Source: Chrysophaeum taylorii
Taxonomy: Eukaryota; Sar; Pelagophyceae; Pelagomonadales; Pelagomonadaceae
Direction: 5' to 3'
Length of the DNA stretch: 41,982 nt
Assembly (NCBI GenBank): GCA_029834535.1
Contig: JAQMWT010000180.1
Location: forward strand, 1 to 41,982
The notes beneath the pieces were generated by a model. It saw only the letters and a program-made list of their open reading frames with translations. It searched no databases and was not told the origin of the DNA. The stretch's first letter is position 1; each line of letters begins with the position of its first letter. Positions 7,394 to 38,439 of the stretch are shown piece by piece. The translations under genes were made by a program, and so were the position numbers.

Positions 7394-7532
7394 GACGAGA
7401 CTGGAGAATTAAAATTCACTTCTTAAAAAAAACGTGGGGCACTGGGTGCCCCATGGCGGCCGTTGCAACAACCACAACGGAAAAAAAAATGGATCCTCTG
7501 CTCTTACAAAAAAAAGGTAGTCGGTCTATACT

Positions 7533-8111: not shown

Positions 8112-8165
8112 CGCTGCTCACACCACTTCCACTTATTATTAGGATTAGGGTAGGGAAGAGAGCGC

Positions 8166-10486: not shown

Positions 10487-10665
10487 CCAACCGTCGCCCG
10501 GCCACTCTGGCGACGTTCGCTGTCTGTCAATCGACGTTTGAACCGACCGACGCCGGGGACTTTTTTTTAAGGGGGAAGCAAAAAAAACAACGGAACCGAA
10601 CCAAACCAAAAGGGCCTGCTTCTTCTTCTTCTTCTTCAATAACTCCTTCCTTCCTACTAATAGCA

Positions 10666-11700: not shown

Positions 11701-11934
11701 CGCTCAACTAGAAATAAGTGACCTGGCCAGATTGAACTTGATCTTCGCGACCTTTCCGTTGTAGTAAGGTGAGGGGGTTCAAGTACCCTAACCCGGCCTA
11801 CGATCGGACGAACGAACGTTATATGAAAACCATAGGGTGCGTCATGGCTGGCTGGATGCGGGCATGGCGGGCGGCGACGGCGGCGGCGGATAGATATGAG
11901 AAGGAAGAGAGAAATAAATAAATAAGTAAATTAA

Positions 11935-12579: not shown

Positions 12580-12756
12580 AATGATGTGTGGCAGCAGCAG
12601 CACCTCAAGATCGCAAAAAGAAAGACGCGTGCGAGTAGAAGAGAATGTACGTACGTGATAATAACGGTCCCAAAACACGGGGGGTTGTTTGTTTGTTTGC
12701 TGAGGTAGTAGTACCAAGGTGGTGTTCCCCTGTCGGGGAAAGCGCCAAGTGTGGAG

Positions 12757-13428: not shown

Positions 13429-13705
13429 CGTCTGATTCGCGTTGTTGATCGGAACGAACAAAATATCAACCACGAATCAATCAGGCGAAGATCGCGGGTT
13501 TTTCTTCTTTTACGACAGAAAACTATTTGCTGGCACTGGGGGGTTCCGTCGATGCAACCACGTCCCGACGAAGAAAAAAGGGAAGAACGAACTCAAAAAA
13601 AAAACGGAGTGTCTATCGCGTTCTTTTTCCGACTTCTTTAAAGAACAGAAAACTAGTAATTGCTGGCAGCGGGTGAGGGCGCCGCAATCAAATAACCATC
13701 CTCAT

Positions 13706-14506: not shown

Positions 14507-14930
14507 CGTCTGCTTCGTGTTAACAAGACGATCTTGAACTCGCCTAGCTTCAAACGCCAATGTGTACTGGTGGTATCTTTACTGTGCCGGTACGAACAAA
14601 TGGACGGCGGCCACCAATTAATAAGTTATTACTCCCCCTTTTCTTCGCAGGCAGTCAGTCGACTTAACTCTAGTAGAGACGATGGCTCTTTACATACGTC
14701 AGAGTTCCTTTTCGACGAACCAACCGGTGCGGCAGCGGAGGATGCAATTTTCTGGGGCGCAACACCGAAGCACCGCCAGTGGCGGCGCGACGACGCAAGT
14801 TTGGCTAGCCACGCGCAGGGATAAGCTGGCTTTAGCACGCCCCGGCGACCCGACAGTTATAAGAGATGTGGCGAGGTGCAATATGAGAGGAGGAGGAGGA
14901 GGAGGAGAAAACCCCACGTCCGTCTTCTTA
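14507..14930. other. Intergenic between LHC and PsbO
   Basis: Holds the presumed LHC promoter/5' UTR and the PsbO 3' UTR. A (gga)n run lies at about 14889-14908. No coding region is supported. Confidence 0.6.
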
Positions 14931-15863
14931 TTAGTCTTTGACAACCTTGCCGTAGAAGATGCCCTTGGACAGGATCTTTTTGGGTTCCTTGGAGCCGAGG
15001 TCGGTGTCGGAAGGCTGGGAGGATACGAAGACCCCCCCGATTTCGCCATCTTCTGGGTTTACCTGGGAAACCGCAAACTCGATAGACCCATCAAAGACGT
15101 CGAAGACCTTGTTGATCTCGTTGGCGAGCTCGTCCTGAGCGTCGGTGCCGGTTTGGGACGCCGGCAGTGCCTGGGCCTGATCGTAACCCGTGGTCATGCC
15201 GCGCCCCTTGGGGTCGAGGAAGAGGCCGGTCCGGTACGAGGGCACCTTGAAGGAGCCGCCAAACTCAAAGCCCGGCTTGAAGGAGCCGCCGTTACCCTTG
15301 GCGACGAGTTCCTTGATGGTGAAGAGGAAAGGGACGCGCTCCCCGCCCGGAAGCTGGACGGTGGTTGGCGCGTAGTCGATGCCGTCTTCCTCCTTGAAGG
15401 TAATGGAGCTGCCGCCCTCGAGCTTGCCCGAGATGCCGTCGAGAGTGTAAGTCTGGCGGGTCATGAGCTTTGTGTTTACAAACTGCTTGGTGACGTCGCC
15501 CTTCTTGTTGGCGACTTCCTCCTCGACCTGCCACGTCTTGGGCTCGAGGCACAAGTCCACCAATTTGTAGCCCGACGACGGCACGTTGATCGAGCCCGTG
15601 CCCACGACCTCGTTGCATCGGTTCGCCAAGCCCGTCCCCTTGATCTGGAGGTACGAGAGCTGGCTCCGCACGTCTGAGGTAATCGCCACCGCGGGCGCAG
15701 TCGCGGCGAACGTGGCGAGAACTGAAGCGACAGCGTTGGCGGCGAGCTGCTTGGCGAGGTGCTGGCTCGATGTGGACGATGACGTCGTCGTGTGGGGATT
15801 TTGCTGCGGCTGCAGCGAGGAGACGCCAAGCGCCAGGCACACCACGAGCTTCGACGTCGTCAT
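14931..15863 (-). CDS. psbO: Photosystem II oxygen-evolving enhancer protein 1 (PsbO)
   Basis: Manganese-stabilising extrinsic subunit of photosystem II in the thylakoid lumen. With the ATG at 15863 the protein has 310 residues. Targeting is tripartite: signal peptide MTTSKLVVCLALGVSS, a Ser/Thr-rich transit segment, then a hydrophobic lumen signal ending TAPAVA at residue 60 (A-V-A cleavage). The mature part shows YLQIKGTGLANRC (C83) and LVDLCLEP (C105), the conserved disulfide pair, VPFLFTIKELVAKG, SFKVPSYRTGLFLDPKGRG and GGVFVSSQPSDTDLGSKEPK, all PsbO hallmarks. Last of the five co-oriented plastid genes. Its start is about 135 nt from the divergent calmodulin ATG, so a bidirectional promoter is likely. 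Confidence 0.96.
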   Translation of the reverse strand: MTTSKLVVCLALGVSSLQPQQNPHTTTSSSTSSQHLAKQLAANAVASVLATFAATAPAVAITSDVRSQLSYLQIKGTGLANRCNEVVGTGSINVPSSGYKLVDLCLEPKTWQVEEEVANKKGDVTKQFVNTKLMTRQTYTLDGISGKLEGGSSITFKEEDGIDYAPTTVQLPGGERVPFLFTIKELVAKGNGGSFKPGFEFGGSFKVPSYRTGLFLDPKGRGMTTGYDQAQALPASQTGTDAQDELANEINKVFDVFDGSIEFAVSQVNPEDGEIGGVFVSSQPSDTDLGSKEPKKILSKGIFYGKVVKD

Positions 15864-15998
15864 GGCGAGCAGGATAGGGTGAGCTAGAAGCTTCAACACG
15901 CGCGATCTGCTACTACTACGAGGGTCAGCGTCTGACGCACGTCCGTTGGCGAAGACGGCCGTTGGACAGCCACGACGTTTCGCAGCTGAGATTTTTCA

Positions 15999-16495
<497 letters not shown>

Positions 16496-17323
16496 ACAAC
16501 CATCTCGACACCCGCCACCCCCCCCTCTTCCCGCGCGGCAAAATCGCCACTCCCGCTCGCGCCGAAGGGCCCTGCATTTGGCCAGGCGACCTTATCCTTC
16601 CAGATATTCTTTTTTGACCGTGTGTCGGACAACTCTCTCCCGTTAGCTTATTGCATCCACTGCAGATATAACTGCGCGTTTGATCCGTCTCTGCCCTTCG
16701 ATGTCTAGGTGGGTTTCCTTGCGCGCTTTGCACAACACGCGTTGCGTGGGGTCACTGTCCAGGCCTAGAAAAAGATTGATTGAGCCATGCTTGATGGGTG
16801 GCGTGGCGGTACTGTAAGTATTGGAAACAAGTCCCAACGTCAACTTAGTGCTAAATACTTGGGTTTCACTTTCTTTGTTCACCATGTGCAACGCCACCTG
16901 CCCCTTTTCTTTTACTTCTCTTGCTTCAAGTCAACAGTCACCCCCCCCCTCTTAGCAGTCGACATTTAAAGACACATCCAATTTCATGGTTGCTCTCTTT
17001 TCTTTTTGCCTCTGTATCATTATGTTAAAAAAGAATAATCGGACGTTTGAGGCGAAATCCGGAAAAGGCCCTACAATTTATTGCGATAAAAACTAGTACA
17101 CTGTGGTATATGCCAAGTGAAAAAATAAGTTCCTTTTTTTTCCTTTTTTTCTTTTTTTCTTCTATTTTTTTATTTTTTCTTTTATTCTTACATATATTTT
17201 TCTTTATCTTTTCTTTATCTTTTATCTCCCATCTTTTTTTTTATCTTTCTCTTTTTTCCTTTTCTCTTTCTTTCCTGTCTGCACTTTCATTTGACAGTGC
17301 TCGAATGCTTAACCTGCTGAACA
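16496..17323. other. Intergenic; long polypyrimidine tract
   Basis: Follows the calmodulin gene. No domain-bearing frame is visible. From about 17110 to 17280 the + strand is nearly pure T/C (tttttctttttttcttcta and similar), an extended polypyrimidine tract just upstream of the transposase. Composition turns AT-richer here. Confidence 0.6.
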
Positions 17324-18685
17324 ATGGTGCTAACATCCTTGCCTCTCGCCGCCTCGCGGCGGCTTGCTGGGCGTCGGACGGTCACCAAAGTCCGCGGATT
17401 TCCATCGAAAGCTGTTTGGCTCGCGTGCGAGGTTTGTTCGACGGCTCCTGGCGAGGTTTGTTCGACGGGACCTAGTAGCGGTCCGGACGAGGACGAGGCC
17501 GCTCGTCGCATAGTCGCGGCCTTCGCGATGTTCATCTCTGACAATCACCAATGGCGAGCTAATCGGAGACGTAACCGCAGGCCATTCAATCAGTTCGCGG
17601 CGACGCTCGACGATCGCGAGTTCGGGCGGCGGTTCCGCTTGAATAGACAGTTGTTTAACCGTGTTCTCTCGAGCGTGAAGAGCGAACTCAAAAAGAACGA
17701 GAGTGCAGCCATTCGGTCCAGTGGATCAGCCATTTCTCCGGAGTGGCGTCTCGCTATCACTCTTCGGATGCTCGCTGTTGGCGATCCATCCGGCGTTGCG
17801 GACATGGCAAACGTCTCTGACGTCACCGTCTGGCCCTTGGTGGCCGAAACGGTGAGAGCAATCAACCGTCAGTTCCCATTCGACAAGTTCGACCCAATGA
17901 ACTCTGAGCACCTTGAACAACTCGAGACGGAGTTCGCGTTGCGGAGCGGAAACGTCGTCCGTGGCTGCGTAGGCGCCGTCGATGGGATGGCGGTTTGCGT
18001 CCGCAAACCGCGGTCTGGAGAGTGCGGCGGCAAACCGTTGCACTACTACAACCGCAAAGGCTTCTACGCCGCCAACCTCCAGGCCGTCTGTGATGCGAAG
18101 GAGAAGTTTCTCTTAGGAAGTATCCGGTGCCCTGGGAGTACTGAGGACTCCACTGCTTTTGGCGTGAGCTGGCTTGGCATGGAGCTCGACGCTGGGCAGA
18201 TGTTGCTGCCGTACTGGATTGCCGGCGACGCCGCCTACCGCGCCACTGAGTTCATGGTCGTTCCGTGGCCAAGGCGCAACCTGGACACCTGGAAAGATAG
18301 TTTCAACTTCTGGCATTCCAAATCCCGCGACACCATCGAGTGTGCCTTTGGCATGCTGACGATGCGGTGGGGAATACTCTCGCGGCCGCTTAGCTGCTCG
18401 TTGACTGTGGCCACGCAGGTCGTCTTCGCGTGCATGATCCTGCACAATTTGTGCATCGACGCACGTCTCGACAGCAGCAAGATTGAGTATATGCGCGGCG
18501 ACGGCAGCAGTCTCTCGGAGCGTGTGCCGATTCTCGAAACGGGGGGCCGGCTATGGGCTGACCAGACCTCGCGGGGTACTCAAGGTCGGCGATCCGATCA
18601 TGAAGTCTGCCCTCGGCGTGCCGAAATCACAAACACCCTGCAGCGTGCCGCCCTGAAACGTCCTGTCTGGTCCATTTCCCGCTAG
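17324..18685 (+). CDS. PIF/Harbinger (HARBI1-like) DDE transposase
   Basis: Open 453-residue frame for a DDE_Tnp_4-type transposase/nuclease. The first 70 residues may be untranslated or a poorly conserved start; MFISDNHQW at 17531 is an alternative. An HTH-like region lies at about 137-180. The catalytic triad is visible: D220 in GAVDGMAV, D302 in AGDAAYRA, E339 in TIECAFGMLTMRWGIL; family motifs CPGSTEDSTAF (269-279) and ACMILHNLCI (369-378) are also present. No internal stop is seen, so the enzyme could be active or domesticated. Terminal inverted repeats were not identified by eye. The second protein usual for this superfamily (Myb/SANT-like) may be represented by the decayed minus-strand region that follows. 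Confidence 0.88.
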   Translation: MVLTSLPLAASRRLAGRRTVTKVRGFPSKAVWLACEVCSTAPGEVCSTGPSSGPDEDEAARRIVAAFAMFISDNHQWRANRRRNRRPFNQFAATLDDREFGRRFRLNRQLFNRVLSSVKSELKKNESAAIRSSGSAISPEWRLAITLRMLAVGDPSGVADMANVSDVTVWPLVAETVRAINRQFPFDKFDPMNSEHLEQLETEFALRSGNVVRGCVGAVDGMAVCVRKPRSGECGGKPLHYYNRKGFYAANLQAVCDAKEKFLLGSIRCPGSTEDSTAFGVSWLGMELDAGQMLLPYWIAGDAAYRATEFMVVPWPRRNLDTWKDSFNFWHSKSRDTIECAFGMLTMRWGILSRPLSCSLTVATQVVFACMILHNLCIDARLDSSKIEYMRGDGSSLSERVPILETGGRLWADQTSRGTQGRRSDHEVCPRRAEITNTLQRAALKRPVWSISR

Positions 18686-18979: not shown

Positions 18980-19800
18980 CAGCGCGAGAAACCATAGGTG
19001 TTGCCGCCGTCAAAGTTGGAGAAACTCAATGGGTCGTTTTGGCCCGGCGTGCCCCGTTTGGAATATGCCCTCACGAGCTCGCTCCGGCGCTTCGTTATCA
19101 GCTTCTTCAGGGCGCCATCCATAAGCGGGTATTTCGGGGGCGATCGCAGGATCAAGATCCCGAAGAGTCCAGTTGTGCTGGGGCTTCCAGTCCTGGTCGT
19201 TGACACAGCGCGCGAAGCTGTTATCGCCCTCCCACATATCTCCGCGGTCATCGTCGTCGTTCGCATCCAGCTATTCCCTCGTCTTTCCCTCTCCGTACTG
19301 TCGAGCGATGCGGATCAGGTTCGGGTCCGTCAGCAGACAAACGAGTCGGCATTTGAGATCGGCGCGGATTACCGACGCGCTCGCTCCAGTCGCCGCGGTG
19401 GTTGGGGAGCGTATGTCGCCGACAGCCTTGATCAGGTCATGATTCAAGCTCGTCTCTGCCATTGAACGGCGAAGGACAGCGAGCTTCGACGCCTTGAACG
19501 GCTCCTCTAGTATGTTGGTGATTGGAAACGCAGAAACCCCTTGTGACGCAGACTTGATCGAAAGCGCGTTTGTAGCCCAAGTAGTCAATCCCCGTCAAAG
19601 ACACTCCCTCGGAGGTAAATCCCGCAGTCGACAGGCATGACCGTCTGGCCGATGGCCCAGTCCTCACAGGTCCCCCGACCATCATGGTCTTCCATTAAAA
19701 TCTTCATCTCTTGCATATTGAACTCGTCCGACTTCTCGCCGTCGCTCATCTCCTTTCGCCGACGCACCACCTTCGCCTTGAGCCATGCATTCGGTCTCGC
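18980..19800 (-). pseudogene. Decayed minus-strand coding region, unidentified
   Basis: Several minus-strand open stretches look coding but need frame changes. Rightmost: AWLKAKVVRRRKEMSDGEKS.. to GIYLRGSVFDGD (19800-19590). Then, one nucleotide out of frame, PFKASKLAVLRRSMAETSLN.. to RQYGEGKTRE (19560-19274), a tag stop, and in the same frame MWEGDNSFARCVNDQDW.. to RPIEFLQL (19237-19010). I do not recognise the protein. Position beside a Harbinger transposase suggests the accessory DNA-binding protein, but no SANT signature is clear. Short unseen introns could also explain the breaks. Confidence 0.35.
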
Positions 19801-20197
19801 GGTTTAAAAAATGGGCTCGTAAAATGCCGGTCATCAGCAGCGTAATTTTATGACTACCTTCGGTTCATCCATAGTGACCTCTTTCTTATGCAGCGCAGCA
19901 AACAGCATGGGAAGGCAGAGGTGACGCTGCTCACTTTTGTCGCCAGACATCGTCATACTTGAAGCCGCCCTCGGTCTGGCGGTTTTAAAAATGGTCTCGT
20001 AAAATGCCTATCATCAGCGGTGTAATATTTTGACTACCTTGTTTATGCAGCGCAGCAAACAGCATGGGAAGGCAGAGGTGACGCTGCTCACTTTTGTCGC
20101 CAGTCATCGTCATACTTGAAGCCGCCCTCGGTCTGGCGGTTTTAAAAATGGGCTCGTAAAATGCCTATCATCCGCGGTGTAATACTTTGACTACCTT
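19790..20197. repeat. About 155-nt tandem repeat, 2.5 copies
   Basis: Full units at about 19884-20040 and 20041-20197, with the right-hand half of a third at 19792-19860. Each unit contains atgcagcgcagcaaacagca, cttttgtcgccag and ggttttaaaaatgg and ends in ttgactacctt. On the minus strand each full unit opens a short frame starting M(T/S)GDKSEQRHLCLPMLFAAL. The array ends one base before the left end of retrotransposon A. Confidence 0.85.
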
Positions 20198-20198
20198 G

Positions 20199-21077
20199 TC
20201 CAGAGCGCTACACTATAATGTGTACGATACTGACATTCCTTACTCCTTTCACACTTCTTCTACTTGAGGGTTTTCTCTCCGTAATACGGCTCTCCCTCTC
20301 CTTCCTTACCCTTCCGCAATTATTTATTTCATGACTGCGAAGAACTAGTCTGAAGCGCTCTTCCAACGAGGAGTAGGCCGCCAGGTGCGTACCGTCAGGT
20401 ATGGGGTTTTCTGTTTAATTAACAGAGGCTTCGTTCCTCGTTGTCAGTGTAAGCTTCTATGGGACCTAATGTCCTTAAGGAGTTAGGGCCTAAATCCCTA
20501 CCTTTTGTAGTAGCATGTGACAAGCGGAATGGTCTGTACACGCCTAAGACTGCACGCAGTCTCTACCATGTACCCGGAGAGGGTCAAATCTCTCCGGGTT
20601 ATGGGCCCAGATGCGTAGGTGTGTCAGCCCAACTGTGTAGTGCGTATAATGGAGTGATCAATTTGCGCCTGATCACGAGTACAACGCGACAATGTGCTTT
20701 GCGGTGGTCTACTGTACATATCTGTTGTGTGACGGTGTGTGTCCACCAGTTAAGTTGGTTCATGACCGAGTTGGGTCGGTCACTGGTCACGTGCACTCGC
20801 ATAACTAATAAAACTAAATTTCCCTACACAAGCCGCGGAAACTTGCGTGGGTTTTTCCTTGCATTCCCCAACAAAAGACTGACTGCTAGAGAATTAATCC
20901 ATTCTTCAGTCTCAAATCATCATGTTTAAATGACATGTTGCTTTGTTTGGTCTTGTGAATAAATCCACGCTTAAATATAGCGTACTGTACATATGTACCC
21001 GCACTCTAGAAACCCTTCATTCTTATGTGTCGAACCTGTTTATCAATCCTCTAACCTACCTCGAGTAGGTCATAACA
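20199..21077 (+). repeat. LTR plus structured 5' leader, copy A
   Basis: Starts at tccagagcgctacactat, the same point where homology begins in the LTRs at 27827 and (inverted) 33394. The LTR/leader boundary cannot be fixed because C's LTR is broken; no clear tRNA primer site was found. It contains several perfect stem-loops: a 10-bp stem at 20572-20599, a 7-bp stem at 20654-20676 and others. gag begins at 21078. Confidence 0.8.
21055..21069 (+). promoter_or_regulatory. Hairpin just upstream of gag AUG, copy A
   Basis: CCTAC-ctcga-GTAGG forms a 5-bp stem 8 nt before the gag ATG at 21078. Copy B has CCTAT-tcctta-ATAGG at the same place: the closing pair changes from C-G to T-A, keeping the stem. 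This suggests a selected RNA structure near the start codon. Confidence 0.5.
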
Positions 21078-23835
21078 ATGGCAAAACTCAAAACAATATC
21101 CACCACGGATACTTACAAACAGGAACAACGTCTAGTTGACAAGTTAAACGCTGGACACGCCGGACTTCGTTTCCAAGACAATTCAACTAAGGTCAGTTTG
21201 CTACTTGAAATGATTCGTAGGCACTTGACGAGCCCATATGCGGATGTGTTGTTTTGTTACGATTCATTCGACGCTTACACGCGGATTGCCCCGGAGTACA
21301 ATCAACTGATCGACCACGAAGTTAATATCATCTTTCTCGTTGGAAATTAGAGAAAGTCAACGAGCCTCATCTTCCAGATGAAGATACACTCCCGGACCAC
21401 CTCAAGACGCGGCATATAAATCACACTCGTCGACTATCTGTCGATGAGCGAAATAATCTTGAACGACTTTTCTTTCAAGAGCCTTTTAATCTTGTTCGTC
21501 CCGAATTAAATGACGATGTTAAACTTGTACTTGAGAATTTAAACGCTCAATTCCCAAAATCAATTGTATATGATCCATCTCTAACCAATATATCCTTCTC
21601 AGGTCTTTCTAACACCGACTGGTATAAGTATGCCGAGACCTACGTGGGGTTCTTGTACAAGTTTTTCAATTTGGAATCTCAAGATCGCCCCGCCCTCGCT
21701 ATGTGGGCACAACTCAAGGAGGTTTATGCCCTAACCGCGCACCCAAACAAGACAAGAGCCATAATGTTATTATCTTATTATTACTACGAGACTGTATCTT
21801 GTACGGATGTTACTGAACTTAAAACACAATTCAATCGAATGTCCTTAAATGTTAATTGGTACGCTCATGTATTTGTTGAACAACTTCTTGCTTTTCAAAC
21901 TCAGGCCAAACAACTTAACAAAGAAGAAGCTGCAATTCAGTTTAACGACTCTATAATAGCCCTCAAGGCTCACGAGGAGATTTATCGTTTATATGCCAAC
22001 CCTTCTGATCATGAACGCTACGCACAAGCTCTATTAGACTGGTGTAAACTATATGAATCACGATCAAGCAACACCTCCACTCGTGATCCTGATGTTTTGA
22101 AATTAGTGGATCCTACTGATGTTCGCCCGTTACTGGAGTTTTTATTGGAAGTGTACAATGAGACGAAGTTTCAACTAACCGACGCTTGGATAAACCAGCC
22201 TCTTGGATTCCGTACATCCCTGGTACTACTGCTTCCAAACCACCCAAGGTACTGCTAATGGACACCATTCACCAGTCCCATGGCTCGTTAAATAATACTT
22301 ACTCATTGTTAGCTACAGTCGCTGGACAATCTGGCTTTAACGCTCGTAAACTGCGCAACGCTAAAGATAAAGCGTCTACAATCTCACCTCGGGACACGTC
22401 TTACTATCGTCCACCTTCAAATTATAATGTTAAAGGCACTAGTTTCGACCGTCCTGTTTATTCACAGTCCACTAACCGCAACTCTCGCTCTAATATGTCA
22501 TTAATGGATCGGGCTACTTATCAAGTTGACCGTCTTCGCCATCTGTTTGGTAAATTACAGGAAGCGAATCCCAATCCTTCTACTGACTCGAAAATGGTAC
22601 AAGAAGAAATGAAGAGCCTACTAAGTACCCTCTGGACTACTGCTTCTCAAGCCTCTACTCAGACTCTTGATCCTGAGGAAGCCACCCAAGTTCACCTATA
22701 CCTATCACGCGTTGATACAATGTCCAACACCATCTCGAACTTTCTAGAGACAGATAAAGAGTCTCAAGAGTCTCACATCGTAGAAGAAAAGGATCAAGTT
22801 GATACTTCTGCTCCTGCAGCGTCCCCCAGTGATGCGGAGCAGAGGGGGACTGCTGAAACGGAAAAGATGTTTCATACTTTTCTTTCTATCAAAGATGAAG
22901 AAATCGATAATATTCCTCAACCGTTACTGCAGCACATAAATGCTAAAGCACAGAATGCTATCGTTCGTCGTCAAGCACGGGAAACTTCTCTTCATTCTGA
23001 GCTTCCCAATAATCAACATGACGGAGAAAACGAGGATGGCACAGAGCCCCCGAGGTTGCTTCCGAAATTAAATAATGGTTTTACACTCGTTGTTGTACCT
23101 TCCGAACAAACGCAAAGTTTTATGACTCAGTATGTTTTTGGTCAAAGCTCTACACATGCGTGTTATGCAACAATGCTTAAGTTGTATAATGAGTACAACT
23201 TACCATTAATGACTACACCTGGGTATGCAGACACATGTGCCTCTCAACACGTGGTTAACTTTAAACGTTATGCTGACCCACTACATATCGTTATGCTGCC
23301 CGAATCCTTGTCACCCGCCATCCAGACGGCTACGGACACTCAAAGTATCACCCATGCAATGATAATAAGAGCTTTTATTCCTGCTCTCCCAAAGCATCCT
23401 AACGTCGGATACGTCAAGCTAGATGCTGCTCTTTTCCTACCTAAGCAAAATCAACATAACGACCCTGATTTGCACATCATCAGCATGACACACTGGGGAG
23501 AAGATAAACTTGGTATTCATCTCTATGGGGTTGAGTCTAAAGGACAATCAAATATCCAGAGCAAGATTGACGACAACGTCACGATTACTTTGTTTAGGTT
23601 AAACAACCTATTACCTACGCTCCCAATCTATTCGCTACAGCAACCTAAAGCTCGAAAGATGGAGCTTCGCTTTTTACAGTTTAAATAAAGTGCTTTCAAC
23701 GAACAACGTGAGATGCTAAATTCGTACTCCAAACTCCTAGAACGTGTAATATACGTCCCGTGGCTTAAAACCATTTTGGAGTCCATGCATTCACAACTGC
23801 CTTATGTGCGCAAGCACTTCTCACCCCCTGTATGA
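21078..23835 (+). pseudogene. gag-protease of copia element A (frameshifted)
   Basis: Capsid-type gag and aspartic protease polyprotein. Reads from MAKLKTISTTDTYKQEQ at 21078; single-base losses near 21340 and 22175 break the frame, and a taa at 23686-23688 replaces the sense codon seen in copy B. Otherwise it is colinear with B to the shared tga at 23833-23835. The protease site reads YADTCASQHVVNF (about 23227-23262): the usual D-S/T-G is D-T-C. I see no CCHC zinc knuckle in the gag part. A 7-bp stem-loop is embedded at 22821-22850. Confidence 0.85.
23833..23835 (+). promoter_or_regulatory. In-frame UGA between gag-PR and methyltransferase, copy A
   Basis: The gag-PR frame ends HFSPPV-tga and continues in the same frame into RMFNPSLL and the methyltransferase. 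Copy B has the tga in the same place with the same flanks (gtaTGAcgca). UGA followed by C is a known leaky context. Either readthrough or re-initiation at the ATG six nucleotides beyond the stop (23839) could express the downstream part. Confidence 0.55.
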
Positions 23836-23838
23836 CGC

Positions 23839-24891
23839 ATGTTTAACCCAAGTTTGCTTCATACCACAACATCCAACTCTAGCTCACGCGTACCCACTGT
23901 AACACTACTTTGTTCCGGGTTGTCTACTCCTGCATTCTTGGCTTGCGCTTCCAATGACTTGCGAATCAACATTAACGTTAAAGTTCTTGTTGAAAGCGAT
24001 GAAAATCTTACGCATATGCTTCGAAGACGGTTTGGCAATTCCATTGAAGTGTTTCCGTCCCTTCCAAAGTTTCTAACCTATCTGCATCGCGCATCAGACG
24101 CAGAACGTGCAAGATACTACTCTGACATTGTGGAATTGACTTCCCCGTGTACTAATCGCAACATAATTAATGGGAGATCTATATCAACTTTCGAGCGAGA
24201 TATGGACGATTCTTTGTTCCCAAGTGCTCTAAGTGTACTTGAGCTTTTAAAACCCCTTGTTCTTTTTATGGAGATGACACCACCACACTCTGCATCCTAT
24301 GAAGATCATATACGAGTTGCTAACCTGATCTTCTCTACAATGCATTATACAGTGGACATTTGCGATCGCTTTCCTTGTTACTTGTGTGGAGACTACCAAG
24401 CACGGGAAAGATGGATCCTCGTCGCCCGCAAGTATAGCACTGGTCCGCTAGACTTGCTTTCTTGGCCCAATAAGCGAGTTACTTCCTTCCTGGACATTGC
24501 GGATCACGCTAATACCATAAGTCGAAAGCTATTAATCGATGAACCATGGACACTAGTCTTCTCTGATGTACCATTTGTTTCCATACCTAGAACTTACAGC
24601 ACCTTCAGTCGCACGGGGTCCGTTCGCCTAACTGTTACCGAGCTAGAAACGCCAACCATGCTGTTTCTCCGGTTACATTCATATAAAACAACCGAACACT
24701 CATCCCAAGACGAAATGGAGGGCATTTCTAACTTTCGCTTGGGATTCTTAACGAATTCAAGGAAGCCCCTTACGTGCATGACTTCGCCCATTGAACTCAA
24801 GGCCTTTGTCATCCTCAAAAACATTATGGGACGCTTGTTCCCAAACTCTCACCTTACCTGTGTCTTTTCGTATTACAACCATCGAATCTAA
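23839..24891 (+). CDS. Cytosine-C5 DNA methyltransferase-like domain in copia element A
   Basis: Open 350-residue frame with the ordered motifs of C5 cytosine methyltransferases. Motif I: VTLLCSGLSTPAFLACAS (21-38, SAM loop); motif II: VKVLVESDE (48-56, E52); motif IV: DIVELTSPCTNRNIINGRS (96-114) with catalytic-type P103-C104; motif VI: LVLFMEMTPP (140-149, E145); motif VIII: CGDYQARERWILVARK (183-198, cf. PQ-RER); motif IX-like: RLTVTELETPTMLFL (263-277); a possible motif X at LTNSRKPL. The closest feel is Dnmt3/Dcm-like but divergent (PCT instead of PCQ/PCN). It sits between protease and integrase, in frame with gag-PR apart from the UGA. Retrotransposon-borne DNMTs are known from dinoflagellates and a charophyte alga. 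The frame breaks after residue 336 by a one-base loss relative to copy B. Confidence 0.8.
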   Translation: MFNPSLLHTTTSNSSSRVPTVTLLCSGLSTPAFLACASNDLRININVKVLVESDENLTHMLRRRFGNSIEVFPSLPKFLTYLHRASDAERARYYSDIVELTSPCTNRNIINGRSISTFERDMDDSLFPSALSVLELLKPLVLFMEMTPPHSASYEDHIRVANLIFSTMHYTVDICDRFPCYLCGDYQARERWILVARKYSTGPLDLLSWPNKRVTSFLDIADHANTISRKLLIDEPWTLVFSDVPFVSIPRTYSTFSRTGSVRLTVTELETPTMLFLRLHSYKTTEHSSQDEMEGISNFRLGFLTNSRKPLTCMTSPIELKAFVILKNIMGRLFPNSHLTCVFSYYNHRI

Positions 24892-25886
24892 CCAACTATC
24901 TCACAGATTATTTTTAAATAAATCCTCGAGCTCCCCCATTATCTACATAACAGGCGGAAGACATACAGGTGGAGACATCACAGTTGCTAATCCTTCTTCT
25001 AAATACCAAGCACACATTAATTCATTTGGTGAAACTTATACCTTCCAAACGCACAATCAGGAATCAATAAGACCGTTACTCTCGATCCTGTGACCGGCTT
25101 TCTTTGGTTGTGTCAAGCTTACCACCATAATAATGAAACCCAAGACACCCGTCGCCTCGTGCAAACACTTGCCTCCTTCACTTCACCTGTACTTCAGGAT
25201 TCTTTTATGTCTTACTCCAAGTTCAACCACGTTGAATTCATCGATAAAATCTTCTATTTAAGGGACATGCATCTGTCTCAAAGCAGGTACCTCGGCTTTA
25301 TTACATCTAGCGATAGAAAGATGGGTGCTAAAGTTCATTCCATCCATACACGGGTTCTTTTCGACACATTTTAGTCTTCAAATGTCTCATCTCTAAATTT
25401 TTGTTAGTGTACTTTTGTCGTACTACTAATGCTAGCGAATTTTGTAATGCCCTCGAGTTTGTTCGTAATTTTTGCTCCACCTATGTTCATGTACAATTAA
25501 AGCAAAATTATTGTGACTCTCTTAAACCCTATTTATCTCAACACATTACTACTCCCTTTCGTGTTGAACATGGCAGTAATATGTCTGCTTTCCCTCCCTA
25601 CTTGCATGTTTTAATTCACGAAGTAGAAGCCGCTGTGGGTCATATTGCAACTGCTGCGTCTACACGACTCCGGCATATGCTCAATGTGTCCTATAAAGGT
25701 CACCCCCTAACAGATCCGGCCCCACACTACCCGTGGGCTGTTATACATGCCATTCAGTCGTACAATCTTCTCCCCAATGTCTCTCTCGAACGCATTCATA
25801 ATAAAGTGCTAAGTCCCCAACAAGTTTTGTTGGACCAATGTAATGTTCCCCAACAAGACTGCCTCAAACATTTTGGTTCTGTTTGA
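24840..25886 (+). pseudogene. MTase-integrase linker and partial integrase, copia element A
   Basis: Continues after a frameshift: FRITTIESNQLSHRLFLNKS.., TGGRHTGGDITVA, GFLWLCQAYHHN, and EFIDKIFYLRDMHLSQSRYLGF, an uncharacterised linker also present in B and C. Compared with C, roughly 0.6-0.7 kb carrying the HHCC zinc finger and the first catalytic Asp is deleted near 25375. The integrase core resumes at LVYFCRTTNASEFCNALEFV; FRVEHGSN occupies the place of the usual second Asp motif (SDNG), and HEVEAAVGHIATAASTRLRHML fits the Glu helix. A tga at 25884 replaces a Cys codon seen in C. Confidence 0.75.
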
Positions 25887-27826
25887 TATTTGCATCTGGA
25901 ATCTAATGAATTTCACAAATATGAACCTCGATGTCGTCCCTACATATACTTATGTGGCGCCAATGTTATTAACCCTCTGGTTACACCCTATGTTAACCGC
26001 TTAGCTGATGTTGTCCTAAATCCTGAGAACGGCCAAGTCCGTGTCTCATCTAAACTTGCCTTTCCTCATCTAGCTTCTAATTCTCCTCCCGATTACGAAC
26101 AACATCCCCCACCTGCACCTTCACCTGAAATACCCTTTTCTGTTCAAAACACCACCAGTGATGCGTTGCAGAGGGGGAATGCTGTGTCCAACGACACTGA
26201 ACACGAGAGGGGGAATACTTCACCTTCCGCACACGCTCCTACTCCAGTTCCAGCCTGTGCTCCCGCTGCTTCTGTCGCCACACCTACGGCATCTGAAGTG
26301 CCGTCCAATGCTTTACCCATTTTACCATCCTATCGGTCCCTATACTCACATGACGTCCTTCGTCTCACCCGCGGTCCTAATCACCCTCAGCCTCGTCGCA
26401 AGACTAATCTCAATGCTGTTCTCACTCGCATTGCCTCGCCAACCGTTGCCGCTTATAAACAAACTGGTTGTGCGCTTGCTGACTTCAAGTATGACCTCTC
26501 AAAGCAATACATTACCCTCTGCGACCCCACCCTCCACTCCCTTCATGCTGCTAATGGCATCCACTGGATGGCCATGCCACCAGAGGGGGAATTTGCACAA
26601 ACTCTTCATCATCATGTTCACCACGCGCTATTCCAGTCTTCTTCTGGTATGTGTCATAGTAGCCTTGGCCATCCGTCGGCAACTGCCACTCCCGTTCATC
26701 TCCTCGACGACTTCAGCCTCTCGGACTTCCACCTTCCTCGTGCTCTTGTTCATCTAATTTCTGAACACGCTCAAGCTTTTCAAGTTCCTCCCGCTCAATA
26801 TGCTTACGCTTTGCTAACGCCCCATTCTGTTATGGATCATAACGATGCTTCTTATGGCGCCTCAGAACCCCGCCTCTCCGCCATTGAAGACTACATCACT
26901 GTCTCATTACATTGATGCACACCCTGGAGATGATCCTTTACTTGTTATTCAGCTTGTCGAAACTCCCGATCCCGATCATACTGCCGTTATTGCTGATTCT
27001 TACACGATCATCCACCTAACTCATGCTCAAGATCCCAGCACTGTTGGTCCGGACGAATATAAAATTCAAGCCAAGGATATCAAGATTGATGAATATGAGT
27101 TAACCTGCCTTAAAGGTCTTTCCGATGCTGATCGCAATGCTTACATCTCCGCAATTTCCAAGGAGATTTTTTATATTGTCAAATTTGGCTGTTTTAAGTT
27201 ATCGTTGCCCACGGTCAACTCCAAGCCTATTGATACCCGGCTGGTATTACTTATAAAGACTAACGCTGCTGGCGAATACATCAAACATAAAGCGAGATTG
27301 GTCCTGCGGGGATTTTTAGCCTCCCTGGGCACCGACTTTTTTGACACATTTAGTCCAATGGCACAGCTCACTGGTATCCGTTGTGTTCTGGCGCTCGCAG
27401 CACACCTCCGACTTCCCGTCTATTACATAGATCTGCCTAACGCGTTTGTTCAAGCCCATATAGATTCTCATGTCTACGTTAAATTGCCACAAGGTATTCG
27501 CCTATTGGATCCAGAAGACGCAAAGTACCAAGGACGACGTCTCCCAAAACTACTCAAATCTCTTTATGGATTACGACAGAGTCCCGCAGTCTGGAACCAA
27601 ACCATAAATGGTTTCTTCGACACGCCAGGCTATCAACGCTTTCGAACAGATACCCGCATCTATGCCAAAGTCCAATCCGACGCTACATTTTTACTTTGTA
27701 CTCTATCAGTGGATGATGTTGTTGTCATCTGTACATCGGAAAGTCTACGTCGTGAATTTCAACAAGCCATCAAGAAAGAATACTCTGTTGAAGACTTCGA
27801 AGAAGTTCATACTCTTCTAGGCATGC
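25887..27826 (+). pseudogene. Integrase C-terminus, linker and truncated reverse transcriptase, element A
   Basis: YLHLESNEFHKYEPRCRPYIYLC is the integrase C-terminal part, followed by a Pro-rich linker and then a copia reverse transcriptase after a frameshift near 26910. RT landmarks: KARLVLRGFLASLGTDFFDTFSPMAQ, YYIDLPNAFVQA (first Asp), LLKSLYGLRQSPAVWNQ, and LSVDDVV (27703-27723), where the usual Y-V-D-D is S-V-D-D. The RT stops at HTLLGM, where the next LTR begins. RNase H is missing. Linker positions 26151-26184 repeat a sequence found in gag. Confidence 0.85.
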
Positions 27827-28724
27827 TCCAGAGAGCCACACTATTATGTGTGCGACACTGGAACATTTCACGCCTATCTCTACACGAGGGTTTTCTCTCC
27901 GTAATACGGCTTTCCCTCGTTCCTCCTGTCCTTCCTTATCCTTCCTTACCCTTCCGCAGTTATATATTTCATGACTATGAAGAACCCAGTCTGAAGCTCT
28001 TTTCCAACATGGAGTAGGCATCCAGGTGCGTACCGTCAGGTACGGGGTGTTCTGTTTAATTAATAGAGGCTTCGTTCCTCGTTGTCAGCGTAAACGCTTC
28101 TATGGGACCTAATGTCCTTAAGGAGTTAGGGCTTAAATCCCTACCTTGTGTAGTAGCATGTGACAAGCGGAATGGTCTGTACACGCCTAAGACTGCACGC
28201 AGTCTCTACCATGTACCCGGAGAGGGTCAAATCTCTCCAGGTTATGGGCCCAGATGCGTAGGTGTGTCAGCCCAACTGTGTTGTACGTATAAATGGAGTG
28301 ATCAATTTACGTCTGATCACGAGTACAATGCGACAATGTGTTTGGCGGTGGTCTACTGTACATATCTGTTATGTGACGGTATATGCCCACCAGTTAAATT
28401 GGTTTGTTGTGACCGAGTTGGGTCGGTCACTGGTCATATGCACTCGCATGGCTAATAAAATTAAATTTTTCCTATACAAGCCGCGGAAACTTGTACGGGT
28501 TTTTCCTTCCATTCCCCAACAAAAGACTGACTGCTCGAGAATTAATCCATTCTTCAGTCTCAAGTCATCCTGTTTAAATAGCATGCTGATTTGTTTGGTC
28601 TTGTTATTAAGCCCACGTTTAAAATAGCGTACTGTACATAGAACCCGCACTCGAGAAACCCTTCATTCTTATGTGTCGAATATGTCTATCAATCATATAA
28701 CCTATTCCTTAATAGGCCACAATC
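27827..28724 (+). repeat. LTR plus structured 5' leader, copy B
   Basis: Colinear with 20199-21077 with many substitutions and small indels. The stem at 28298-28320 keeps both 7-nt arms (GTGATCA/TGATCAC) while its loop has two changes. The 10-bp stem of copy A has one mismatch here (ctctccagg). The pre-gag hairpin at 28701-28716 carries the compensatory pair described for copy A. Confidence 0.82.
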
Positions 28725-31466
28725 ATGTCAAAACAAAAACCAATATCCACTACGGATATCTACAAACAAGAACAAATCCTCGTTGATAAGATTAACGCAG
28801 GATTGCGTTTCCAAGACAATTCAACCAAGGTGAGCTTGCAAATTGAGGTGCTTCGCAGGCATATGACAAGTCCATATGTGGGCGCATTATTCTGCTTCGA
28901 TTCATATGAAGCTTACACCCGGAATGCTCCGGAGTATAATCAACTTCTTGAACAAGAAGTTGATATCATCTTCGCTCAATGGAAAGCTGAACAAGTAAAC
29001 GATTTAAACTTACCTGATGAAGATGCCCTGCCTGATCATTTTAAAACTTGGCATGTCAATTCATCACATCAACTAACAGTTGATGTCCGTAACAATCTCG
29101 AACGACTTTATTACCAAGAGTCCTATAATCTCGTTCGTCCCGAATTAAATGAGGATACTAAACGTGTCCTTAATCTATTAGATACCCGATTCCCTAAATC
29201 AATTGTGTATGATTCTTCTCTAACTAACATATCCTTTACAGGTCTCTCTAATACCGACTGGATCAATCACTGCGAAACTTATGCTGGTTTCTTGTACACA
29301 TTCTTTAACCTGGAATCACAAGACAAACCAGCACTCGCTATGTGGCCTTGATTAAAGAAGATACATGCACTTACTGCACATCCTAATGAACTACGTGCGG
29401 TAATGCTTTTAGCTTACCACTACTATGAGACAGTGTCTTGTACAGATGTTACTGAGCTTAAATCTCAGTTTAATGCAATGTCTTTAAATGTTAATTGGTA
29501 TGCCCATGTATTCGTCGAACAACTCCTTGCTTTCCAATCTCAGGCAAAGCAATTAAATTATGATGAAGCATCAATCCAATTTAATAACTCCATAATCACT
29601 CTTAAAGCTCACGAGGAGATCTACCGTCTATATGCTAATCCCTCGGATCACGAGCGCTATTCTCAACCTTTATTGGAATGGTGTAAACTCTACGAGACAC
29701 GCTCTAGGAACAACTCGATTCACGATCCTGAATTGTTAAAGCTAGTTGATCCTAACGACGTTCGTCCGTTATTGGAGTTCTTGTTAAAGATATACAATGA
29801 AACAAAGTTTTCCTCTAACCGACGCTTGGATAAACCCGCCCCCTGGATCCCTTACATCCCTGGTACTACCGCTACCAAGCCACCTAAGGTATTATTGATG
29901 GATACTATTCATCAATCCCACGACTCTCTAAACAACGCTTACTCGTTATTAGCTACTGTAGCTGGACAGTCTGGCTTCAACGCTCGTAAGCTTCGTAATG
30001 CAAAAGATAAAGCATCGACAATTTCACCTCGTGACACGTCGTACTATCGTCCACCTTCAAATTATAACGTCAATGGTACCAGCTTCGACCGTCCTGTCTA
30101 CTCACCCTCCTCTAACCGTAATGCACACTCTAATATGTCTCCTATGGACCGGGCTACTTATCAAGTTGATCGTCTTCGCCACCTGTTTGGTAAATTACAG
30201 GAAGCGAATCCCAACCCCTCTGCCGACTCTAAAATGGTACAGGAGGAAATGAAAAGCTTACTGAGTACCCTCTGGACAACCGCTTCTCAAGCTTCGACAC
30301 AGTCCTTAGATCCTGACGAAGCCACCCAAGTTCATCTCTACTTATCTCGAGTTGATACTATGTCCAATACCATATCGAACCTCTTAGAAGCCGATAGGGA
30401 ATCTCTTGTTTCAGAAGAAAAGTATCAAACTGAAACATCTGCTCCTAAAGCGTCCCCCAGTGATGCGGAGCAGAGGGGGACTGCTGATACAGAGAAAATG
30501 TTCCACACTTTTCTGTACATTAAAGATGATGAAATCGATAACATCCCTCGGCCGCTATTGCAGCACATAAATGCTAAAGCTCAGAATGCTATCGTTCGTC
30601 GTCAAGTTCGGGAAACTTCCTCGCACTCTGAGCTCCCCAATAATCTACCCAACGAAGATAATGAAGATGGCACAGATCCCCCTGTGTTACTACCAAAATT
30701 AAACGCTGGTTTTACACTCGTCGTTGTGCCTTCCGAACAAACGCAAAGTTTCATGACACAGTACGTGTTTGGTCAAAGCTCAACACATGCATGTTATGCA
30801 ACAATGCTTAAACTGTACAACGAGTACAATTTGCCGCTAATGACTACGCCAGGATATGCTGACACATGTGCTTCTCAACATGTAATCAACTTTAAACGCT
30901 ATGCTGATCCTATTCACATCGTAAAGCTACCCGAGTCCTTATCACCTGCTATCCAGACTGCTACGGATACGCAGAGAATCAAACATGCTATGATTATAAG
31001 GACCGTCATTCCCGCTCTCCCAAAGCATCCAAATGTGGGATATGTAAAGCTAGACGTTGCGCTTTTTCTACCCAAGCAAAACGACCATAACGATCCCGAT
31101 CTGCACATCATCAGTATGACTCAATGGGGAGAAGATAAACTTGGTATACATCTTTGTGGAGTTGAATTTAAAGGACAATCATATATCCAGAGTAAAATTG
31201 ATGATAATGTCAAGATTACTTTGTTTAGGCTCAGCAACCTGTTGCCATCTCTACCAATTTATTCGCTACAACAAGCAAAAGCGCGTAAAATGGAACTTCG
31301 CTCATTACAGTTCAGACTATGTGCTTTTAATGAACAACGCGAAATGCTTAAGCTATATTCCACCCTCATGGAACGCGCAATTTACGTCCCATGGCTTAGA
31401 ACCATCCTGGAGTCACTGCATTCGCAGCTGCCTTACATACGCAAGCATTTCCCACCTCCCGTATGA
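28725..31466 (+). CDS. gag-protease polyprotein of copia element B (one internal stop)
   Basis: Best-preserved gag-PR of the window: 913 codons from MSKQKPISTTDIYKQEQ to RKHFPPPV-tga, interrupted only by a tga at 29349-29351 where copy A has a Gln codon. Gag occupies most of the length; its C-terminal part contains a Ser/Thr-rich region and SDAEQRGTADTEKMFHTFL. The protease is near residue 710 with ADTCASQHVINFKRYADPIH, followed by KLPESLSPAIQT; the D-T-C variant of the active-site triad is shared with copy A. No CCHC knuckle is seen. The length is large for a copia gag-PR. Structural protein plus maturation protease; virus-like particle assembly is the expected role. Confidence 0.82.
31464..31466 (+). 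promoter_or_regulatory. In-frame UGA between gag-PR and methyltransferase, copy B
   Basis: Same site and context as in copy A (gta-TGA-cgca). The frame continues without another stop through RKVTTRLLYKAPATDSDDDD.. into the methyltransferase up to 32384. The reading frame is therefore maintained across the stop in both copies. Confidence 0.55.
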
Positions 31467-32604
31467 CGCAAGGTTACCACACGATTGCTTTACAAGGCAC
31501 CGGCGACCGACTCAGATGATGATGATGATGATGATGACGACGTCGAGCCCGACTGCTGGGCTGAAGCCATTCCTCGGACCGAGGAGGGGCAGCAGCAGGA
31601 GCAAACTGGGGATTCGGAGGGGGCGATGACGGACGTCAACTTCAATGTGGAGTTTGTAACTTCGTCTCCTAGCCCACGAACACCTACTGTAACTCTACTT
31701 TGCTCTGGGATGTCCACTCCTGCATTCTTGGCTTGCGCTTCTAATGATTTGCAAATCAACATCGACGTTAAAGTTCTTGTTGAGAGCGACGACAATATCA
31801 CGCACATGCTACGAAGACGTTTTGGTAATTCCATCGAAGTTTTCCCACCCCTACCTAAGTTTCTGACATATCTCCATCGAGCATCGGACGTTGAACGTGC
31901 ACGATATTACACCGATATAGTGGAATTGACATCACCATGTACAAATCGCAACATAATCAATGGGAGATCCATTTCCACCTTCGAGCGTGATATGGATGAT
32001 TCCTTGTTTCCAAGTGCTCTAAGTGTACTTGAGCTTATAAAGCCGCTCGTTCTTTTCATGGAAATGACACCACCACACTCCGCATCGTATGAAGATCATA
32101 TACGAGTTGCTAATCTCATCTTCTCAACGATGCACTATACGGTGGATATATGTGACCGATTTCCATGCTATCTATGTGGAGATTATCAAGCTAGAGAAAG
32201 ATGGATCCTCGTTGCACGTAAATATAACACCGGCCCTCTTGATCTGTTTTCATGGCCTAATAAACGAGTCACTTCCTTTCTGGACATTGCAGACCACGCT
32301 AATTCCATCAGTCGCAAGTTAATAGTCGACGAACCTTGGACGCAGGTCTTTCCTGACATACCATTGGACGCAGGTCTTTCCTGACATACCATTCGTGTCC
32401 ACACCTAAAACCTACAATATTTTCAGTCGTACAGGATCCGTGCGCTTAACTGTGACTGAGCTTGATATGCTGTTCCTTCGTCTGCACTCTAATAAAACAG
32501 TTGAACATCCTAGTCAAGATGAAATGGAGGGCATTTCTAACTTTCGCCTAGGATTCTTGACTAATTCAAGAAAACCACTTGCTTGCATGCATGAGATCCC
32601 CTAT
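31467..32604 (+). pseudogene. Cytosine-C5 methyltransferase-like domain, copy B (frameshifted)
   Basis: Same domain as in A: TVTLLCSGMSTPAFLACAS, VESDDN, ELTSPCTNRNIINGRS, LFMEMTPPHS, CGDYQARERWILVARK. It is preceded by an acidic, GC-rich segment (31490-31645) absent from A, encoding an Asp run from a (gat)n repeat and EEGQQQEQ. A 28-nt tandem duplication (32337-32364 and 32365-32392) shifts the frame before the motif IX region, which continues in another frame as SRTGSVRLTVTELDMLFLRL; a further small insertion lies near 32588. So B's enzyme is broken although the motifs are well conserved. Confidence 0.8.
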
Positions 32605-33000
32605 TGAACTCAAAGCTTTCGTGCTCCTCTATAATGTTATGGGACGCTTGTTCCCTAAATCTATCACATTACCTGTGTCCTTTCGTATTACAACTATCGA
32701 ATCTAACCAACCATCTCACAGGTTATTTTTAAATAAATCCTCTACTTCCTCCATCATTTACATCACCGGTGGAAGACATACAGGCGGAGACATAACAGTT
32801 TCTAACTGCTCTTCTAAATACCAGGCACATATAAATGCTTTTGGCGAAACCTATACCTTCCTAACACATGATGCCGGAATCGATAAGACTGCTTCTCTCG
32901 AACCTGTTACTGGTTTTCTTTGGCTTTGCCAAGCATACCATAATAATAATGAAAATCAAGACACGCGTCGTTTAGTACAAGCACTGGTCACCTATACTTC
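32605..33000 (+). pseudogene. Post-methyltransferase linker, copy B, truncated
   Basis: IELKAFVLLYNVMGRLFPKS, FRITTIESNQPSHRLFLNKS, GGRHTGGDITVSN and GFLWLCQAYHNNNENQDTRR match the linker of copy A in one open frame. It ends at 33000 where copy C's inverted LTR starts. No known domain recognised. Confidence 0.7.
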
Positions 33001-33394
33001 TGGAGAGATTTGACCCTCTCCGGGTACATGGTAGAGACTGCGTGCAGTCTTAGGCGTGTACAGACCATCCCGCTTGTCACATGCTACTACACAAGGTAGG
33101 GATTTAGGCCCTAACTCCTTAAGGACATTAGGTCCCATAGAAGCGTTTACACTGACAATGGGGAACGAAGTCTCTGTTAATTAAACAGAAAACCCGTACC
33201 CGACGGTACGCACCTAGGCCTACTCCAGGTTGGAAAAGAGCTTCAGACTGGGTTCTTCATGGTCGTGAAAGAAAGGGGCGGAAAGGTAAGGAAAAGGAAG
33301 AAAGAGGGAGAGCCGTATTACGGAGAAAACCCTCGTGTAGAGATAGGTGTGAAAATGTTCCAGTGTCGCACACATAATAGTGTAGCTCTCTGGA
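33001..33394 (-). repeat. 3' LTR of copy C, broken, inverted relative to B
   Basis: Reverse complement of the first about 400 nt of the LTRs at 20199 and 27827. On the minus strand it starts tccagagagctacactatta directly after the tract gaggggg (a polypurine tract), which defines the LTR's 5' end. It breaks off inside the strong hairpin of the LTR, exactly at the junction with B. Confidence 0.88.
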
Positions 33395-33401
33395 CCCCCT
33401 C
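33395..33401 (-). promoter_or_regulatory. Polypurine tract of copy C
   Basis: GAGGGGG immediately before the LTR start, the expected plus-strand primer site. Similar AGAGGGGGA runs occur inside gag and the integrase-RT linker of the same family. Confidence 0.65.
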
Positions 33402-38432: not shown

Positions 38433-38439
38433 AGTCAGT

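Follow-up and report, generated by a model that had tools for sequence, protein, structure and literature searches.

Organization of the locus

The window, i.e. the whole 41,982-nt stretch of Chrysophaeum taylorii contig JAQMWT010000180.1 that was analysed, contains three related element copies, A and B on the forward strand and C on the reverse strand. Copy A runs from about 20198 to 28747, copy B from a shared LTR to about 33001, and copy C from about 40352 down to 33002. They were assigned to the Ty1/Copia elements because the reverse transcriptase (RT) domain RVT_2 is present in copies A (Pfam, E 3.2e-38, profile positions 11–206 of 244, on the frame 26818–28017) and C (two pieces, E 6.6e-7, which is below the cut-off, and E 2.6e-17). 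Long terminal repeats are present, the sequence from 20198 onward recurring at 27827 and 33395 in blastn comparisons in which the right LTR edge is not fixed: 20199–21100 is repeated at 27827–28747 (86% identity), and 20198–20595 is repeated in inverted orientation at 33395–33002 (85%). The parts delimited in this way are the 5' LTR and leader of copy A (20198–21070, forward strand, end approximate), the LTR-leader repeat between copies A and B (27827–28747, forward strand) and an LTR fragment of copy C (33002–33395, reverse strand). A tandem repeat of about 157–180 bp (19791–20197, forward strand) abuts the left LTR edge of copy A, and a DDE transposase-like frame (17321–18685, forward strand; PF13359, E 3.1e-24) represents a DNA transposon beside the Copia cluster.

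In copy A, all parts of which lie on the forward strand, gag-protease (21078–23832) was located by tblastn with the gag pieces of copy B, and a protease-like DTCASQHV was recognized by eye at 23230; the gag and integrase regions are spread over several frames. Gag-protease is followed by an in-frame UGA (23833–23835, in the context GTA TGA CGC) and by the front part of a putative C5-cytosine methyltransferase (MT; 23836–24849), which comprises motifs I to VIII and the start of a long insertion. The insertion continues in other frames at 24851–25350, residues 340–407 and 408–506 of the Pol protein of the genomic copy L002 matching 24851–25054 and 25054–25350, respectively (tblastn). Integrase and linker (25320–26915) and a Copia RT recognized by RVT_2 (26818–27825) follow. 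The RT is cut short by the LTR repeat beginning at 27827, into which its open frame continues up to 28017.

Copy B, also on the forward strand, consists of gag-protease in two frames (28716–31463, tblastn), an in-frame UGA in the same context GTA TGA CGC (31464–31466) and a frameshifted MT (31656–33001) that matches residues 11–247, 225–315 and 312–451 of L002 Pol. Its MT is 91% identical to that of copy A over 236 residues from 31656, after which the frame changes; copy B was thus correctly described before as carrying the same domain. Copy C (reverse strand) retains the rear part of the MT (39660–40271, tblastn), with motif IX at 39969–39986 and motif X at 39858–39881, and linker and RT in two pieces (36336–38504, RVT_2); tblastn gave no match to the MT front part in this copy. 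A complete MT is found in none of the copies in the window.

Several other features lie in or near copy C. Open frames at 33512–35038 (reverse strand) are located between its RNase H-like region and its LTR, and the one at 34511–35038 has no Pfam match. A 257-bp direct repeat (97% identity) occurs at 38504–38760 and 40658–40914. A gag-like frame at 41325–41981 (forward strand), 31% identical to the gag of copy B and with no Pfam match, runs off the window and is probably the start of another Copia family. Pfam also detected two Chlorophyll A-B binding proteins and PsbO; together with the DNMT5-like and DNMT2 genes described below, they make an ochrophyte a plausible host of the elements.

A diverged C5-cytosine methyltransferase in the elements

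The preliminary description, made from the sequence of the window, had proposed a domain with ordered C5-MTase motifs between protease and integrase of a Copia-type element. The six strings that it quoted are all present in the order given: LLCSGLSTPAF (23905–23937), VESDE (23989–24003), ELTSPCTNRNII (24133–24168, the motif IV region, with the candidate catalytic Cys encoded by 24148–24150), LFMEMTPP (24262–24285, the motif VI region, whose Glu is aligned with the Glu of PDB C5-MTases), GDYQARERW (24388–24414, the motif VIII region, QxRxR) and RLTVTELE (24625–24648). The frame of copy A is open from 23836 to the stop at 24891 (351 codons).

The curated cut-off of PF00145, the only Pfam family listed for the domain of either copy, is 22 bits, and copies A and B score 10.9 bits (E 0.3) and 13.2 bits (E 0.059), respectively. 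NCBIfam gave no match to the two domains and PHROGs just E 0.28 and 0.084. As these direct profile matches are not significant, the homology of copies A and B was established through intermediates, so that the profile search suggested earlier fails for the two copies themselves but succeeds by way of the proteins P0003 and L040. A search of 5.8 billion proteins with the copy A domain (P0001; 1203 candidates scored) found the transcriptome proteins P0002 (E 1.2e-71) and P0003 (E 6.6e-16). PF00145 matches P0003 above the cut-off (41.8 bits, E 1.2e-10) and P0002 just below it (20.2 bits, E 4.4e-4), and in blastp against a set of 38 loci P0002 and P0003 match a second lineage of elements (see below) with best E-values of 3.7e-7 and 2.5e-10, respectively. 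L040, a member of this second lineage, is matched by PF00145 (32.1 bits, E 1.1e-7) and by TIGR00675 (E 3.8e-8, below its cut-off); no PF00145 match was listed for L002 or for the front half of L084, the latter from a sister family of the window family. P0001 and P0003 are colinear residue by residue over the catalytic region (P-C, E-M-T-P-P and G-D-Y-Q-x-R-E-R-W), and a profile-profile comparison of lineage 1, that of the window family, with lineage 2 aligned the same motifs with a probability of 83.7%.

Among the sequences listed when the family profile was compared with the PDB, 8 of 10 were C5-MTases, M.HhaI being the best of them (E 0.15) below a ribosomal protein in the top row (E 0.12); with a family profile from a more diverse set, 6 of 7 were C5-MTases and 8yf3 came first (E 0.052). 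The other rows were the ribosomal protein (third in the second search) and a PTS component. The C5-MTases were matched motif on motif at E-values of 0.05 to 1.4, which are weak taken alone, and no DNMT3 was among those listed. Single-sequence phmmer searches of the PDB with P0001, L040, P0003 and L085, an element sequence from outside the genome, found no C5-MTase.

In C5-MTases, motif VI reads ENV and motif VIII QxRxR. Lineage 1 keeps the Glu of motif VI but reads EMT, and lineage 2 reads ENV; QxRxR is kept in lineage 1 and is degenerate in lineage 2, where most of it is lost, and in L085. The front halves of the MTs from separate lineages are 16–56% identical, with the motifs still recognizable. 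A 164-aa protein from an ENA contig (P0004) has the signature EMTPPHSASY but TC instead of PC in motif IV. On these comparisons, the reading of 23836–24860 as the front part of a diverged C5-MTase in a Ty1/Copia element, between protease and integrase, appears to hold, with corrections, its homology being drawn through intermediates and the domain being kept by selection.

Full extent of the domain

The corrections concern the rear of the domain. In L085, a short region after motif VIII is followed by a segment with PTIT, RYLSIAEM and IANAVP; in L004, a member of the window family, PTPTIRG, RIRHYSTRELAR and IANAIPAG occur about 300 residues further downstream than in L085. This IX/X segment of L085 matches that of L004 at E 8e-15 and that of the second lineage at E 3.6e-6 (two-sequence blastp), and in the PDB search with the diverse-set profile this stretch was covered by a second, weak alignment to a solved C5-MTase. 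It was found in L002, L004, L005, L006, L008, L084, L085 and copy C. When the rear segment was submitted to Pfam by itself, none of 4 queries was matched, and hhalign of near-identical sets failed to reveal it, a comparison that was likewise uninformative for the two host enzymes against each other.

The domain had been thought to end at 24860 and RLTVTELE to be motif IX. Longer copies extend about 300 residues further, and RLTVTELE was rejected as motif IX since it sits in the insertion, inside the long region between motifs VIII and IX, the true motifs IX and X being far downstream as aligned in L085 (against L004) and the PDB. The long region between motifs VIII and IX probably serves target recognition, as its position suggests. 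Residues 507–785 of L002 Pol have no tblastn match in copy A, which indicates that this copy is without motifs IX and X. It had been said to keep the domain open while the gag and pol around it are broken; both points were borne out, but the domain that is open is incomplete.

Element families in the genome and relatives outside it

The 70.8-Mb, 697-contig genome contains at least 118 matches to P0001 (78–100% identity), of which 84 are without a stop (counted by hand among the best candidates). With this number of matches, most of them without a stop, and with the strong purifying selection described below, the domain is not a product of chance. Family 1b, represented by L084, has at least 150 copies scored from 933 candidates, and its MT is 56% identical to that of the window family over motifs I to VIII. 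A PF00145 scan of the genome gave 57 matches above the cut-off; among the 30 examined, L009 and L010 are host genes and all of the other 28 (L011–L038) belong to the second element lineage. L040 of this lineage encodes PF00145, rve and RVT_2 in a single 1952-aa frame, together with a protease-like motif recognized by eye.

The domain order is gag-protease, MT, integrase and Copia RT, protease and RNase H being identified by eye and the other domains by profiles. RVT_2 was matched at E 3.5e-42 in L039, 1.6e-38 in L040, 1.5e-41 in L084 and 4.5e-45 in L085, and rve lies upstream of it in all four, each time below the rve cut-off (E 3.4e-4 to 6.1e-3). When the 40 best RVT_2 matches of the genome were inspected by hand, at least 22 had an MT or junction match 3–6 kb upstream on the same strand. 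The remaining 18 had no such match listed, at least 3 of them being at a contig end; Copia families without MT may well exist in this genome.

L085 is a 7673-bp contig with the title 'MAG: Muricauda sp. TMED12', TMED presumably denoting a Mediterranean metagenome set. One open frame runs through the whole contig and encodes MT, rve and RVT_2, with PF00145 just below the cut-off (18.5 bits, E 0.0015). Judged by this content, the contig is probably a mis-binned eukaryotic sequence of marine origin, likely a contamination of a bacterial assembly. Relatives of the MT also occur among the MMETSP transcriptomes, and with relatives in both sources the module is likely to be ancient and to occur in several organisms rather than one. 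No relative was found among viral contigs with the queries P0001, A1 and A3, so that a viral donor is unsupported. A protein search with the second-lineage profile gave nothing at E 0.01 among the 8000 candidates scored.

Selection on the MT

Selection was analysed on 37 domain copies, i.e. 36 of the 118 genome matches and copy B, most of them with a long frame or with RT nearby. The sample was hand-chosen, mostly from better-scoring matches with longer frames, and favours conserved copies. RT was also read for 18 elements (153 pairs; Nei-Gojobori), for which the MT had a dN of 0.0305, a dS of 0.443 and a dN/dS ratio of 0.069, compared with 0.051 for RT; without copy A the ratios were 0.078 and 0.052, respectively. 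Over all 666 pairs of the 37 copies, some of the wider of which are saturated, the median dN/dS of the MT was 0.070. The motif IV Cys is present in 37 of 37 copies and the preceding Pro in a fraction of 0.97; the corresponding fractions are 0.97 for the motif VI Glu and 0.97–1.00 for the Q, R and R of QxRxR. The MT is under strong purifying selection, close to the level of RT. Such a pattern is what a domain needed for the spread of the element would look like.

An in-frame UGA precedes the MT

We found that an in-frame TGA stands right before the MT in 13 of 13 copies (A, B, L002–L008, L039 and L041–L043), including copies that are just 78–79% identical in protein. When the genome was scanned with the stop position left as three free letters, 198 sites were counted; all of the 100 listed read TGA, and the reversed control gave 0. 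In family 1b, the same border reads TGA CTA at 48 of 49 sites and GGA at one, and L084, the one member of 1b examined in this respect, has 182 open codons upstream of the UGA and in frame with it. The 100 and 49 sites share descent and are not independent events. In both sister families the UGA is followed by C (CGC and CTA), and UGA-C is a leaky stop context. The longest invariant run in a 12-copy alignment of the junction is TATGACGCA.

As the ATG that overlaps the UGA is out of the MT frame in all 13 copies, it was dismissed as a site of re-initiation; the frame that it opens reaches a stop after 4 codons in 9 copies and after 16–41 codons in the other 4. In 10 of the 13 copies, the first Met codon in frame behind the UGA encodes residue 29 or 61, which lies inside or behind motif I, and a protein begun at this Met would lack part of the domain. 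Three copies differ, with the first such Met at residue 2 in copy A, at residue 7 in L003 and, within a longer leader, at residue 54 in copy B. A read-through hairpin on the 3' side is unsupported, as local folds of two single sequences gave no stable RNA structure 3' of the UGA (z -0.92 and +1.36). A stop that would abolish Pol is carried by all copies of a family that has become this widespread, so that it must be passed, and read-through is the simplest reading of the conserved UGA. The MT would accordingly be the leading domain of a Pol produced by readthrough of the stop codon.

The UGA seems to be characteristic of lineage 1, since L085 has no stop at the corresponding position and L040 uses a -1 overlap. 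In L040, the copy of the second lineage that was read, the gag and pol frames overlap at 1090–1140 and are offset by -1, which amounts to recoding of another kind than at the UGA of lineage 1.

The closest precedent for the UGA appears to be Tca2 of Candida albicans, which we take to be a member of Copia. As here, a UGA lies between its upstream gag frame and Pol; however, the UGA of Tca2 follows gag, whereas that of the present elements follows gag-protease and precedes the MT, and no methyltransferase is mentioned for Tca2 in the portions of that report consulted (PMC2194720). By analogy, Tca2 may also serve as a warning, the flanking sequence alone being insufficient in yeast according to the same portions (PMC2194720).

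Proposed role of the MT and alternative readings

The reading that we favour, and consider fairly probable as a whole, is that the MT is the first Pol domain in a large Ty1/Copia clade and is made by read-through, co-packaged and directed at the element cDNA. Most ribosomes would stop at the UGA and yield Gag-protease, and a minority would read through it to produce a Gag-protease-MT-integrase-RT fusion, from which the MT would be packaged together with RT and integrase. It might then methylate cytosines of the double-stranded cDNA of the element or of the new insertion, and the region of about 300 aa between motifs VIII and IX would determine its target specificity. The methylated incoming DNA could resemble host DNA or be shielded from nucleases, and the host DNMT5 might maintain the methylation of the element. 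The sequence data suggest in this way that hundreds of elements bring their own DNA-marking enzyme along.

No excess of CpG mutation was found: C-to-T changes amount to 3.61% at CG and 3.52% at CH, and G-to-A changes to 1.94% and 1.69%, respectively. The observed/expected CpG ratio of the elements of this genome (0.91–1.02) is below that of the host part of the window (1.29 at positions 1–17000) but not depleted in absolute terms; that of L085 is 1.34. CpG self-methylation that leaves a mutation trace is thus unsupported by mutation rates or CpG ratios, and either the methylation is in a context other than CG, or it is transient, or there is none.

In another reading, the C5-MTase fold has lost its activity on DNA and serves as a nucleic-acid-binding or integration-targeting module, which would fit the missing CpG excess as well as the atypical motif VI (EMTPP) of lineage 1 and the degenerate motif VIII of lineage 2; this is nevertheless unlikely, as the sampled copies keep the Cys (37 of 37), the Glu (0.97) and the Q, R and R of QxRxR (0.97–1.00), the motifs are recognizable across lineages whose front halves are 16–56% identical, and pure binding would presumably not need a catalytic Cys. 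An RNA m5C methyltransferase acting on the element RNA or the tRNA primer would equally leave no CpG trace, and DNMT2 methylates tRNA. However, the rear halves of the MTs gave nothing better than E 0.63 against the host DNMT2 (L009), and their large region between motifs VIII and IX is unlike that compact enzyme (360 aa), so that we regard this role as quite unlikely, even if RNA methylation was raised for a LINE-borne enzyme inactive on DNA in yeast in the portions of the 2018 survey consulted (PMC5890265). That an unrelated polyprotein segment resembles C5-MTase motifs by chance, as the scores of copies A and B below the Pfam cut-off, the missing NCBIfam match and the PHROGs E-values of 0.28 and 0.084 might have suggested, is scarcely conceivable, being already contradicted by transitive homology with strong E-values and by colinear rear motifs.

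A further alternative leaves the enzyme as it is and concerns its expression: the UGA may be bypassed otherwise (internal promoter, splicing, internal initiation or re-initiation, or a suppressor tRNA), with MT-Pol made separately. The missing 3' RNA structure would be in keeping with this, as would the case of Tca2, in which, according to the portions of the report consulted, the flanks of the gag UGA directed no read-through in yeast and a minor promoter is present in the junction (PMC2194720). On the other hand, the reading frame is the same on both sides of the UGA, C follows it in both families, the overlapping ATG is never in the MT frame and its frame closes after 4 codons (9 of 13) or 16–41 codons (4 of 13), and in 10 of 13 copies the first in-frame Met comes no earlier than within motif I. 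On balance we hold such a bypass to be somewhat unlikely and retain read-through at the UGA as the preferred reading.

Comparison with known retroelement and host methyltransferases

Two of the 30 PF00145 matches examined in the genome are host genes. At E 3e-143, L010 matches PDB 7r76 ('DNA repair protein Rad8'), an entry that we take to be the DNMT5 of Cryptococcus; the match of L009 is to DNMT2 (1g55, E 3.9e-39). DNMT5 is a maintenance-type methyltransferase. Both are C5-MTases too, but the MT of the elements was close to neither in the comparisons made. DNMT5a has been reported in pelagophytes in a study whose consulted portions report no retroelement DNMT of its own there (PMC9998398).

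LINE, DIRS and Gypsy elements are known to carry DNMTs, and the DIRS enzymes methylate CG in yeast (PMC5890265, de Mendoza et al. 2018, as far as the portions consulted go, which also hold for the following comparisons). Like the present elements, KnitGypsy-Dnmt3 of the charophyte Klebsormidium nitens is an LTR retrotransposon with a C5-MTase encoded within its Pol frame, numerous copies and purifying selection, but its backbone is Gypsy and its DNMT of the Dnmt3 type, whereas the backbone here is Copia, and no UGA border is described for it in those portions (PMC5890265). SymbioDIRS-Dnmt3 and SymbioLINE-Dnmt of the dinoflagellate Symbiodinium are likewise present as hundreds of retroelement DNMT copies but belong to retroelement classes other than Copia, and the Copia elements of Symbiodinium are stated to lack a DNMT (PMC5890265). 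A sentence in a 2025 paper names DNMT3 in 'LTR Copia and DIRS' and credits it to streptophytes and dinoflagellates (PMC12344493, in the portions consulted); it cites the 2018 paper, whose own section says Gypsy (PMC5890265). The words stramenopile and pelagophyte are absent from the main text of PMC12344493. The open-licence literature, in the portions consulted, describes no ochrophyte Copia-DNMT case and no UGA-MT arrangement. The in-frame UGA-C between gag-protease and MT in two sister families is a new observation.

It is puzzling that retrotransposons should carry an enzyme of the type by which they are usually silenced, and few such cases have been described; the Copia backbone sets the MT elements apart from the known LINE, DIRS and Gypsy retrotransposon DNMTs. 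The module is found in several deep Copia lineages, its copies number in the hundreds, and the selection on it almost equals that on RT in strength. The UGA border makes a concrete prediction on the amount of MT made. Since only the DNMT5-like and DNMT2 host genes were found among the 30 PF00145 matches examined, it is conceivable that retroelements are the main source of de novo cytosine methylation of the alga, the read-through enzymes seeding marks that the host DNMT5 would copy, an extension of our reading that we consider very doubtful at present. A genome that has both a DNMT5-like gene and MT elements makes such parasite-supplied de novo methylation testable.
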